Positions 37,871 through 41,725 of a DNA stretch of 57,573 nucleotides are shown piece after piece. The notes beneath the pieces were generated by a model. It made no database searches. It saw only the letters and a list, made by a program, of their open reading frames with translations, and had not been told where the DNA came from. Position 1 is the stretch's first letter. Every line of letters begins with the position of its first letter. The stretch spans positions 1 through 57,573 of the forward strand of contig VGBR01000001.1 in the NCBI GenBank assembly GCA_016870355.1, read 5' to 3'. Both the position numbers and the translations under genes were made by a program. The stretch is from Actinomycetota bacterium (GTDB taxonomy: Bacteria > Actinomycetota > Acidimicrobiia > IMCC26256 > PALSA-555).

Positions 37871-37937
37871 GGGTGGCAGTTCCCCTCGTGTGCCTCAGCC
37901 GGTGCAGTCTGACAACTCTTCGGACATCAGGACACCG

Positions 37938-38159
37938 GTGGGACTCCAGGCGATCTGTCGCCGAACGGTCGCGTGCTTCGACGACTACGACCTGTTCGTG
38001 TCGCCCACGATGTCGCTCCCGCTCGCGATGGACGACGCCGGCCTGCCCGTCGGCGTCCAGGTCATCGGCCGTCCGGCGGCCGAAGCCACGCTCGTGCGCG
38101 TCAGCGTGAAGCTCGAAGCCGCGATCCCCTGGATCGACCGGCGCCCGCCCGTCTCCTAG
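37938..38159 (+). pseudogene. C-terminal remnant of an amidase gene with an internal deletion
   Basis: The frame from 37938 encodes CFDDYDLFVSPTM and then at once SLPLAMDDAGLPVGVQVIGR, ending PWIDRRPPVS. Both pieces are amidase-signature C-terminal motifs, but in intact enzymes (for example the one at 11342-12781) 40 or more residues separate the 'TPT' strand from 'slPlhw..dGmPvGvQ'. The N-terminal two thirds with the Lys-Ser-Ser triad is missing. It is therefore a twice-damaged remnant. Its stop overlaps the convergent gene's stop. Confidence 0.7.
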
Positions 38160-39101: not shown

Positions 39102-40511
39102 ATGCGGATCATCTCCGGTGGCTCCTACGTGCCGTACCGCCGCCTCGATCGGGCGACGATCTCCGAAGCGCTGGGAACACCGCCCGCGCCCGGCACCCGC
39201 TCGGTGGCGTCCTACGACGAGGACGCCACCTCGATGGGTGTCGAGGCGGCGCGCAACGCCCTCGCGAACGTCCCACCCGAGCTCGCGCCCGAGCTCGTGT
39301 TGTTCGCGACCTCGACGCCGGCGTACCTCGACAAGACCAACGCCACCGCCATCCACGCTGCGCTCGGGCTCGACCGCTCGATCGCCGCGTTCGACGTGGT
39401 CGGTTCCGTCCGCTCGGGGATGGCTGCGATGCAGCTCGCTGGGAGCGCATCGCAGCGCACGCTCGTCGTCCGATCCGACGTGCGCACCGGCCTTCCCGGG
39501 GGCGCGGACGAGCGTGACGGCGGCGATGGCGCGGCCGCGTTCCTCTTTGCACCGGCAGGTGCCGACGTTCCTGCGCAGACCACCGCACTCGGACGCGGTG
39601 CCGCGACCCTCGAGTTCCTCGACCGGTGGCGGCTGCCGGGAGAGCCAGCGTCGCACGTCTGGGAGGAGCGCTTCGGCGAGCACGCGTACGTACCGCTCGC
39701 GCAGGCTGCCTTCACCGACGCGTGCAAGAGCGCCGGCATCACACCCGAAGACCTCGACCATGTGCTCGTCTCGGGTCCGCACTCGCGCGCGGTCCGGGTC
39801 GCGAGCAAGGCCATCGGTGTGCGGCCCGACGCGCTCGTGGACAACCTGAGCGCGACGGTCGGCTACACGGGCGCGGCGCACAGCGGCATCGCCCTCGCCG
39901 ACGTGCTCGAGACGACCGAGCCGGGCAAGAAGATCGGGGTGCTCCTCCTCGCTGACGGCGCCGACGCACTCATCTTCGAGACCACCGACGCGCTCGGCAC
40001 GATCAAGCCTCGGCGCACGGTGGCCGAGCAGCTCGCGGCTGGCGTCGGCGGTCTGTCGTACGAGACCTTCCTCACCTGGCGGGGGATGCTTGACCGTGAG
40101 CCGCCGCGACGCCCGGATCCGGTGGCTCCCGCCGCGCCCCCGTCACTTCGATCGGAGGACTGGAAGTTCGCGTTCGCGGCGTCGCGGTGCGAGGCCTGCG
40201 GTGAGCGTCACCTTCCTCCGGCCAGAGTGTGCGCGAAGTGCGGCTCGATCGACCAGATGACCAGCGAGCGCATGGCCGACGTCCCCGCGACGATCGCGAC
40301 GTTCACCGTCGACCGCCTCGCCTTCACTCCCAGCCCACCGCTCGTCGCGGCGGTGCTCGACTTCGACGGCGGTGGCCGCTTCCGTGGCGAGCTCACCGAC
40401 GTCGACCCCGCCGCGGTGAAGGTCGGAGATCGCATCGAGATGACGTTCCGGCGCATCACCACCGCGCAGGGCGTGCACAATTACTTCTGGAAGGGCAAGC
40501 CCGCCCGGTAG
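39102..40511 (+). CDS. HMG-CoA synthase/KAS III-like protein fused to a DUF35 zinc-ribbon/OB domain
   Basis: The ATG at 39102 gives 469 residues. Residues 1-345 form a thiolase-fold synthase domain (ISGGSYVPYRRLDR, ELVLFATSTPAYLDKTN, DNLSATVGYTGAAHSGIAL). From about residue 360 a DUF35 domain follows: zinc ribbon CEACGERHLPPARVCAKCG, then an OB fold. The region that normally bears the nucleophile Cys reads AFDVVGSVRSGMAAM (residues 96-110) with no Cys, while His227 and Asn248 fit the other catalytic positions. It therefore may bind acyl-CoA without acylating. The gene sits 20 bases before a thiolase, like the thiolase/HMGS/DUF35 complexes of archaea and aldolase complexes of sterol breakdown. 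Confidence 0.8.
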   Translation: MRIISGGSYVPYRRLDRATISEALGTPPAPGTRSVASYDEDATSMGVEAARNALANVPPELAPELVLFATSTPAYLDKTNATAIHAALGLDRSIAAFDVVGSVRSGMAAMQLAGSASQRTLVVRSDVRTGLPGGADERDGGDGAAAFLFAPAGADVPAQTTALGRGAATLEFLDRWRLPGEPASHVWEERFGEHAYVPLAQAAFTDACKSAGITPEDLDHVLVSGPHSRAVRVASKAIGVRPDALVDNLSATVGYTGAAHSGIALADVLETTEPGKKIGVLLLADGADALIFETTDALGTIKPRRTVAEQLAAGVGGLSYETFLTWRGMLDREPPRRPDPVAPAAPPSLRSEDWKFAFAASRCEACGERHLPPARVCAKCGSIDQMTSERMADVPATIATFTVDRLAFTPSPPLVAAVLDFDGGGRFRGELTDVDPAAVKVGDRIEMTFRRITTAQGVHNYFWKGKPAR

Positions 40512-40531
40512 CCCTCATCGAAAGGAACCTC

Positions 40532-41725
40532 ATGGCCAGTCACGGGATCCGTGATCGCGTCGCCGTCATCGGCATGGGTTGCACGCCGTTCGGCGAGCAC
40601 TGGGACAAAGGACCCGAAGACCTCCTCGTCGATGCGGTAGGCGACGCGCTCACCTCGGCCGGCGTCGAGAAGGACCAGGTCGACGCGTACTGGGTCGGCA
40701 CGATGGGCTCGGGGATCTCGGGTCTCACGCTCTCGCGACCGTTGCGAATCGACTACAAGCCGGTGACGCGCGTCGAGAACATGTGCGCGACCGGTTCGGA
40801 GTCGTTCCGCAACGCGTGCTACGCGGTCGCGTCCGGAGCGTTCGACATGGTGATGGCGACCGGGGTCGAGAAGCTGAAGGACGGAGGGTTCTCCGGCCTC
40901 GCGATCAGCTCCCCGCCGGGTGACGGCACCACGGCCGACTTGAGCGCACCCGCGCTGTTCAGCCTGCTCGGCCCCGCGTACTGCAAGAAGTACGGCGTGG
41001 ATGATGCTGAGTTCAAGGACGTGCTCACCCGCATCGCATGGAAGAACCACTACAACGGCGCACGCAATCCTCGTGCCCAGTTCCGCAAGGAGGTGCCGAA
41101 GGACGCGATCGCGTGCTCGCCACTCATGGCTGGCAACCTCGGCATCTTCGATTGCTCCGGTGTGTCCGACGGTGCCGCCGCGGCGGTGATCGTGCGAGCC
41201 GAGGATGCGCACAAGTACACCGACAAGCCACTGTTCGTGAAGGCGTTGTCGTTCGTCGCCGGTCCGGCAACGGGTGTGGTCGACAACGATTACGACTACA
41301 CGACCTTCACCGAAGTGGCGCGAGCAGCCGAGGACGCGTACTCGCAGGCCGGCGTCAGCGACCCGCGCGCCGAGATCGCGATGGCCGAGGTGCACGACTG
41401 CTTCACGCCCACCGAGCTCGTGTTGATGGAAGACCTCCAGTTCGCCGAGCGCGGCTTCGCGTGGAAAGAGGTGCTCGCGGGCACCTTCGACCTCGACGGC
41501 GACTTGCCCGTGAACCCCGACGGTGGCCTGAAGGCGTTCGGCCACCCGATCGGCGCGTCCGGGCTGCGCATGCTCTTCGAGTGCTGGCTCCAGCTGCGCG
41601 GCGAAGCACCCGAAGACCGCCGCATCAAGACGCTCGAGCAGGGCAAGAAGCTCGCCCTCACCCACAACCTCGGGGGCTCGCCGGGCGAGTGCGTCAGCTA
41701 CGTCGGGATCGTCGGGGCTGAGTGA
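40532..41725 (+). CDS. SCP2-type thiolase / acetyl-CoA acetyltransferase family protein
   Basis: The ATG at 40532 is preceded by AAAGGA; 397 residues. The acylation site is VENMCATGSESFRNA with Cys85; MAEVHDCFTPTELVLMEDL and GGLKAFGHPIGASGLRML give the His residues, and GGSPGECVSYVG is at the end with a second Cys. This is the non-decarboxylating, SCP-x/Ltp branch of thiolases that usually works with a DUF35 partner. The DUF35-bearing protein directly upstream is the obvious partner. It could do the thiolytic or aldol-type cleavage of a branched or sterol-derived acyl-CoA; the true reaction is not known. Confidence 0.9.
   Translation: MASHGIRDRVAVIGMGCTPFGEHWDKGPEDLLVDAVGDALTSAGVEKDQVDAYWVGTMGSGISGLTLSRPLRIDYKPVTRVENMCATGSESFRNACYAVASGAFDMVMATGVEKLKDGGFSGLAISSPPGDGTTADLSAPALFSLLGPAYCKKYGVDDAEFKDVLTRIAWKNHYNGARNPRAQFRKEVPKDAIACSPLMAGNLGIFDCSGVSDGAAAAVIVRAEDAHKYTDKPLFVKALSFVAGPATGVVDNDYDYTTFTEVARAAEDAYSQAGVSDPRAEIAMAEVHDCFTPTELVLMEDLQFAERGFAWKEVLAGTFDLDGDLPVNPDGGLKAFGHPIGASGLRMLFECWLQLRGEAPEDRRIKTLEQGKKLALTHNLGGSPGECVSYVGIVGAE

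Follow-up and report, generated by a model that had tools for sequence, protein, structure and literature searches.

The stretch of DNA analyzed here (the window) covers positions 1 to 57,573 of contig VGBR01000001.1 from an Actinomycetota bacterium (assembly GCA_016870355.1) and carries on its forward strand two adjacent genes, one coding for a fusion of a pseudo-3-hydroxy-3-methylglutaryl-coenzyme A (HMG-CoA) synthase domain with a DUF35 module and the other for an SCP2-type thiolase. The fusion gene (39102..40511) is an open frame of 469 amino acids. It begins with a domain similar to KASIII and to archaeal HMG-CoA synthase (HMGS) (residues 1 to about 330, 39102..40091), of which model residues 1 to 332 aligned to residues 4 to 349 of 6ET9 chain I. 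This domain is followed by a ChsH2-type module composed of a rubredoxin-like zinc ribbon (PF12172; residues 360 to 382, 40179..40247), with cysteines at positions 363, 366, 377, and 380, and an OB-fold domain (OB_ChsH2_C, PF01796; residues 396 to 450, 40287..40451). PF08541, PF12172 (25.6 bits; cutoff, 23.2), and PF01796 (42.7 bits; cutoff, 27.1) all scored over the Pfam cutoffs, and with both zf-ChsH2 and OB_ChsH2_C above threshold, the C-terminal part can be counted as a DUF35 member. After a gap of 20 bp, and with AAAGGAA preceding its ATG, comes the thiolase gene (40532..41725, forward strand), an open frame of 397 amino acids matching NF004810/PRK06157 (NF004810, 592.5 bits; cutoff, 403), the presumed catalytic partner of the fusion. 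Between the fusion and its counterpart in a congeneric genome (G041), there are 46/31/195 differences at the three codon positions over 469 codons, as expected of a coding gene under purifying selection; a decaying pseudogene was rejected on the same counts.

Loss of the catalytic residues in the synthase-like domain

The initial annotation had claimed that the synthase domain has no cysteine at the expected acylation site, AFDVVGSVRSGMAAM (residues 96 to 110), and the alignments bear this out. The site was mapped by phmmer with a single protein (6ESQ) and by a profile of 64 sequences that included 6ESQ and MvaS (1TVZ). Val103 (codon at 39408..39410, forward strand) aligns with Cys114 of 6ESQ by both methods and with Cys111 of MvaS in the profile, where Glu82 of 6ESQ is replaced by Ser71 and the HMGS histidine by Ser224, while the column of the catalytic asparagine holds Tyr255. 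The window fusion has, then, neither the nucleophile cysteine, the catalytic glutamate, nor the histidine of an HMG-CoA synthase, and it falls below the HMGS cutoffs of both NF003274 (120.7 of 244 bits) and TIGR00748 (72.2 of 353.35 bits). There are only five cysteines in the whole protein, C208 and the four of the zinc ribbon, and since C208 is the only one outside the ribbon, there has been no shift of the nucleophile to a neighboring position. An ordinary HMGS with a displaced cysteine was rejected for the window protein by these alignments and by the cysteine count.

The loss extends to the relatives, which were compared in four overlapping alignments. The first contains 81 rows, the window protein and 80 loci from named genomes (the best 80 of at least 551 relatives among at least 592 matched stretches); the second, 36 rows (the window protein, 30 loci from a sample of the phylum, and 5 distant relatives, one of them a fragment); the third, 31 rows (loci of the order, window included); and the fourth, 14 rows (the window protein and 13 plasmid copies). 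No row in any of the four has a cysteine at column 103, where V, L, I, P, A, T, S, Q, G, R, or a gap was found. Similarly, no row has a glutamate at column 71, and a histidine at column 224 appears in a single one (Sphingopyxis, L183). The asparagine column behaves differently, with Asn at column 255 in 76/81 close relatives, many other rows having Asp, Tyr, or Phe there. Cysteines near the site (columns 94 to 112) occur in 17/81 rows, scattered over columns 94, 97, 99, 100, or 105, and off column 103 also in 3/36, 1/31, and 3/14 rows of the remaining alignments. Residue 104, beside the lost nucleophile, is basic (Arg, Lys, or His) in 77/81, 36/36, 31/31, and 14/14 rows. The four zinc cysteines are kept in 59/81 rows and are gone together in the other 22. 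Directly upstream of the fusion in members of a zinc-less subclade (L093, L095, L098, L099, L101, L115, and relatives) stand an SDR-like gene and a gene for an unnamed protein of some 220 residues. Two of these loci, L099 and L115, come from metagenome-assembled records titled Bifidobacterium breve, titles that may be mislabeled; their pairs resemble those of metagenome-assembled genomes of freshwater actinobacteria.

Linkage to an intact thiolase

The thiolase of the window keeps Cys85 (codon at 40784-40786), as had been proposed from its sequence, together with HDCF (His288-Asp-Cys290-Phe, codons at 41393-41404) and His338 (41543-41545), all on the forward strand. The three elements are invariant in 40/40 aligned thiolases, and they make up the set of nucleophile cysteine, HDCF motif, and C-terminal histidine expected of an SCP2-type thiolase.

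Co-occurrence of the two genes, suggested in the initial annotation as a check, was nearly constant. Within the GTDB order of the window, the fusion is present in 45/58 genomes (E ≤ 1e-20) and the thiolase in 46/58 (E ≤ 1e-120), and the two sets are identical except for one genome (G010), which has a thiolase fragment at a contig start. The presence of the fusion in these 45 genomes and in 33 plasmid records also led us to reject a contig or assembly accident. A thiolase match lies downstream of the fusion and on the same strand in 78/80 named-genome loci, at no more than 150 bp in 69 of them; the exceptions are L112, which stops at a contig end, and L117, which has about 2 kb after the fusion. 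The same arrangement was found in 31/31 loci of the order (some of them cut by the locus ends), 30/30 of the phylum, and 5/5 distant ones. Six named loci keep the pair despite 0.9 to 2 kb between the genes. Of the 33 plasmid records matched, 13 were opened, and in 12 of these regions an annotated acetyl-CoA acetyltransferase adjoins the fusion; in the 13th (Paraburkholderia PGU19, L185 9434-10705), the thiolase is present and unannotated, with its frame broken in the record. Pairwise distances of fusion and thiolase are strongly correlated (Mantel r = 0.97, 84 pairs). No fixed larger operon was found, the fusion and the thiolase being the only near-constant elements in the 80 named loci.

Two loci depart from the simple layout. 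In the locus of a paralog from the genome of the window (L048 6500-7600), the paralogous fusion and its thiolase are some 0.9 kb apart, with unrelated open frames in between, and the pair is retained. Another locus (L053, G030:C1:1343000-1352000) contains a truncated fusion relative of 235 amino acids, possibly a decaying copy, and three thiolase-like matches.

Distribution and phylogeny of the fusion

Named-genome titles among the matches listed include Acidimicrobiia, Frankia, Nocardia, Streptomyces, Mycobacterium, Actinomadura, Rokubacteria, Chloroflexi, and Acidobacteria. The phylum sample comprised 246 genomes, from which 30 NF003274 loci were examined and other, mostly weaker, matches were left out. 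All 30 are of the same fusion type, 4 at 50 to 55% and 26 at 28 to 36% identity to the window protein, and none has the nucleophile cysteine. The genome of the window (G000, 2.8 Mb) has 18 matches to the DUF35 OB domain, including two further Cys-less fusions: one belongs to a paralogous pair (C1:435529), is 51% identical to the window protein, and has lost the zinc cysteines, and the other (C6:36046) belongs to a more distant fusion subfamily.

We built a tree of 47 rows with 15 fusions from the named-genome loci and the genome of the window, 11 of the 30 phylum loci, 4 distant relatives, 13 plasmid copies, and four references. All 43 fused sequences formed one clade (99/98), apart from 6ESQ and MvaS, which have the cysteine, and from PhlA and MucA, which do not. 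The root of the tree was not fixed, and long branches lead to MvaS, MucA, and one of the plasmid rows. Because all the fused proteins cluster together and the Cys-bearing synthases fall outside, the cysteine loss appears to be ancestral, and the simplest reading of these sequences is one early event. It had been noted beforehand that homologs with a cysteine at this site would speak for a plain synthase. We found none among the fusions examined, a set that included no archaeal genomes; the contrast rests on the unfused 6ESQ and MvaS, which lie outside the fused clade in this one tree.

Predicted structures

Both proteins were modeled with AlphaFold2 as single chains (pLDDT of 89.3 for the fusion and 86.4 for the thiolase). 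The best matches of the fusion were chain I of 6ET9 and 6ESQ (Z = 42.1, 2.1 Å over 329 and 328 residues), followed by PhlA of two species (Z = 39.0 to 40.4) and then MucA (Z = 37.5 to 37.6). The first 14 matches of the thiolase were led by 6ESQ chain A and 6ET9 (Z = 53.2 and 52.5) and BbsB (Z = 52.2 and 52.1), and further included a Pyrococcus thiolase (Z = 50.8), PhlC (Z = 50.2 to 50.5), and the thiolase-like chain of Muc (Z = 48.8). In these models, both chains match the same archaeal thiolase/HMGS/DUF35 complex best, with PhlABC close behind. A shared fold by itself shows no function.

Genomic context and the estrogen degradation cluster

The genes around the pair in the window code for an acyl-CoA dehydrogenase, an enoyl-CoA hydratase, and two AMP-binding ligases, along with a mycothiol-maleylpyruvate-isomerase-like protein, PurE, and a nitronate-monooxygenase-like protein; this neighborhood suggests some kind of acyl-CoA degradation. 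Upstream of the pair, a fragment at 37926-38156 (forward strand) is 46.6% identical to residues 357 to 472 of a 472-amino-acid protein encoded upstream of the fusion in a congeneric locus (L064). It corresponds to the last quarter of that protein, which reads from its sequence as amidase-like, and looks like what is left of a lost gene; there is a full-length relative at 12775-11348 on the reverse strand.

Most of the 13 plasmid regions have acyl-CoA ligases, hydratases, or acyl-CoA dehydrogenases near the pair, and no polyketide or nonribosomal peptide synthetase (NRPS) gene is annotated in any of the 13. A ring-hydroxylating dioxygenase lies near the pair in 5/13 (two Rhodococcus, Mycobacterium avium, Variovorax, and Niveispirillum), and the two Rhodococcus and the M. 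avium regions also have an AMP-ligase and several enoyl-CoA hydratases. Other plasmid regions, such as that of Novosphingobium US6-1, are less telling. Novosphingobium ES2-1 plasmid p3 carries a cluster with a P450, a ChsH2-like OB-fold protein, a lipid-transfer protein, hydratases, an indolepyruvate ferredoxin oxidoreductase, and VOC proteins, and its HMGS-like gene is a Cys-less DUF35 fusion. Compared by description, its gene order matches that of the estrogen-degrading edc cluster of Novosphingobium tardaugens, given in the available text of PMC7793797 as P450, ChsH2-like protein, lipid-transfer protein, hydratases, thiolase, HMGS, dehydrogenase, and acyl-CoA dehydrogenase. According to the same text, those who described edc could not place its "HMG-CoA synthase" (EGO55_13555), because a condensation makes no sense in a degradation pathway (PMC7793797). 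By analogy with the pair described here, EGO55_13555 would be the dead partner of the neighboring thiolase EGO55_13550, a reading that offers a direct answer to the puzzle.

A dead synthase domain is sometimes named as a live enzyme, as presumably in EGO55_13555 and as in 1 of the 33 plasmid records, and these genes should not be read as a mevalonate step. In the genome of the window (96% complete), there was no match to HMG-CoA reductase (PF00368) and IspG is present, so that a mevalonate role of the fusion is not expected.

Proposed function and alternatives

Taking these observations together, we consider it quite probable that the pair is a two-gene thiolase of the PhlABC type working in catabolism, in which the fused pseudo-synthase/DUF35 chain is non-catalytic, acting as a scaffold and CoA-pocket subunit, and the thiolase is the catalyst. 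The pair keeps the parts of PhlABC, A and B being joined in one chain and C left intact, and would probably form an obligate complex. By analogy with Phl(A2C2)2B4, with its A and B subunits joined, two fusion chains and two thiolase chains, or multiples of these, would assemble into a hetero-oligomer. The KASIII-fold half of the fusion would dimerize, and the DUF35 half would clamp it to the thiolase dimer and help to line the channel for CoA and acyl-CoA. All the chemistry would be performed by the thiolase, where, as in other members of the thiolase family, Cys85 would accept the acyl group and His338 and Cys290 of HDCF would handle protons. The pair likely works in a catabolic pathway, cleaving a bulky or branched 3-ketoacyl-CoA by thiolysis; the combination of HDCF and the nucleophile cysteine favors thiolysis over aldolase chemistry. 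What we infer is that the two chains assemble physically and share a CoA pocket, as well as which way the reaction runs and to which class the substrate belongs.

Several observations weigh against this interpretation. The asparagine column, part of the old active site, has not drifted in 76/81 close relatives. Conserved positions are not enriched near the old catalytic sites (16/56 within 85/330 positions, P = 0.35) and give no positive indication that a pocket has been kept there, and the loss of the zinc cysteines in 22/81 rows implies that the DUF35 bridge is not uniform. One locus, L117, shows no thiolase in the approximately 2 kb of contig 3' of the fusion. The neighbors of the pair in the window are only loosely catabolic, and gene order is not conserved in the 80 named loci. 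Finally, the correlation of distances is equally expected from linkage and common descent alone, and the set of Cys-bearing synthases available for contrast is small.

PhlABC and MucABC, the relatives of solved structure whose synthase-like subunit lacks the cysteine, are described as acyltransferases, so the pair might instead be a biosynthetic multicomponent C-acyltransferase of that kind, passing an acyl group to a non-CoA acceptor. We regard this as unlikely, given that the thiolase matches the archaeal thiolase (Z = 53.2) over PhlC (Z up to 50.5), that it keeps the HDCF/Cys/His set, and that most plasmid copies lie near beta-oxidation-type genes, in regions with no annotated polyketide or NRPS gene. 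Two further roles had been put forward in the initial annotation besides that of a scaffold. One of them, a catalytically different synthase channeling acyl-CoA to the thiolase, would be an active Cys-independent enzyme, for instance one using basic residue 104, whose product passes to the thiolase. The near-invariance of this residue beside the lost nucleophile, the asparagine mostly kept in close relatives, and the good overall conservation of the domain speak for such an enzyme, but residues vary at the columns that once held Cys, Glu, and His, the conserved positions do not center on the old pocket, and 6ESQ and PhlA also have a lysine beside the site, so that a basic residue 104 need not mark new chemistry. 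With no positive support in the alignments, this alternative seems decidedly improbable.

The other role, aldol-type cleavage, would make the pair a retro-aldolase like Ltp2/ChsH2 or Sal/Shy, which would take a side chain off an acyl-CoA that bears a ring. The pair has a DUF35 partner and the SCP2 thiolase fold in common with those aldolases, and clusters of steroid or aromatic type surround some of the plasmid copies. Nevertheless, the window thiolase has HDCF and not the YDHF or YDCY of the aldolases, and it has the nucleophile cysteine that is missing from Sal (Gly there), both features being invariant in the 40 aligned thiolases (aldolase motifs from the available text of PMC12329534); we therefore give this alternative very little weight. 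Least credible of all, to the point of being practically dismissed, is an ordinary HMG-CoA synthase with a misaligned motif. Hydroxymethylglutaryl-CoA synthase is the best NCBIfam model of the domain and the name given in one plasmid record, and some relatives have a cysteine near the site at other columns, but the window protein has no spare cysteine there, the profile alignment agrees, the NF003274 score is half of the cutoff, and the genome has no match to HMG-CoA reductase. What stands of the initial interpretation is the scaffold: none of the fused relatives examined has the cysteine, the domain is linked to an intact SCP2 thiolase, and its nearest parallels in structure are the archaeal complex, PhlABC, and MucABC.

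Beyond the catabolic thiolase proposed for the window, a broader generalization can be put forward only tentatively, as something we would sooner doubt than expect: these pairs may form a large unnamed class of bacterial two-gene degradative thiolases in which the pseudo-HMGS-DUF35 chain, dead throughout, serves as the subunit that sets specificity and provides the CoA pocket for bulky 3-ketoacyl-CoAs derived from rings, including estrogen and aromatic intermediates, with the near-invariant basic residue beside the lost cysteine holding CoA or substrate. If this were true, genes of this type annotated as HMG-CoA synthase in Actinomycetota, Proteobacteria, and further bacterial groups would be misnamed.

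Comparison with known systems

The archaeal complex 6ESQ is the best fold match of both chains and has the same three domains as the window pair. In it, DUF35 ties the thiolase to the synthase and CoA binds at their shared interface (PMC6392133 and PMC12329534, available text), and its thiolase has the nucleophile cysteine at position 85, as in the window (PMC6392133). However, its synthase keeps Cys114 and Glu82 and the complex is made of three separate proteins, whereas the synthase-like domain of the window is Cys-less and fused to DUF35.

Another parallel is PhlABC (PpATase, 5M3K), with a Cys-less HMGS-like PhlA, a DUF35 bridge (PhlB), and a catalytic thiolase-fold PhlC. As described in the available text of PMC6392133, PhlA is non-catalytic, with the cysteine replaced by Gly115 and the glutamate by Cys83; PhlA and PhlC dimers are joined by four PhlB chains; and the bound product is contacted by PhlC residues only, while activity requires all three subunits. 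Already in 2010, phlABC was named as an active and an inactive member of the thiolase superfamily with a DUF35 protein, and DUF35 proteins were noted to be fused at times to members of this superfamily (PMC2954200, available text). The window pair differs in having two genes instead of three, and PhlABC carries out a CoA-independent acyl transfer to phenols. The synthase-like chain does not group with PhlA, which fell outside the fused clade in our one tree with four references and no fixed root. An HMGS-like chain, a DUF35 module, and an SCP2-like thiolase are encoded together, as in multicomponent thiolases and acyltransferases, but not as three separate subunits, the synthase-like and DUF35 parts being one frame in the window and in the aligned relatives. 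MucABC of Streptococcus macacae (9VBO, 9VBT) likewise has a thiolase-like chain and a synthase-like chain, the latter with a glutamate at the cysteine column in the profile alignment; it is a multicomponent acyltransferase by title, has separate chains, and is distant.

Other relatives share only part of the arrangement. The benzoylsuccinyl-CoA thiolase BbsAB (7PXP) is an SCP2-type thiolase in a DUF35 complex and is not known to have a synthase-like chain. In the steroid aldolases Ltp2/ChsH2 and Sal/Shy, DUF35 also flanks a thiolase-fold dimer, but it sits on a hydratase chain and not on a pseudo-synthase, the motifs are YDHF/YDCY, and Sal has a glycine instead of the nucleophile cysteine (PMC12329534, available text), so that the window thiolase, with HDCF and Cys85, does not fall among them. 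We found no earlier description of a Cys-less HMGS-DUF35 fusion in the literature searched. The combination of an inactive thiolase-superfamily chain, DUF35, and an active thiolase was known before from PhlABC, in a natural-product pathway; the pair described here is probably a variant of the PhlABC/archaeal thiolase-complex kind, in the form of a compact and widespread two-gene module that serves catabolism.

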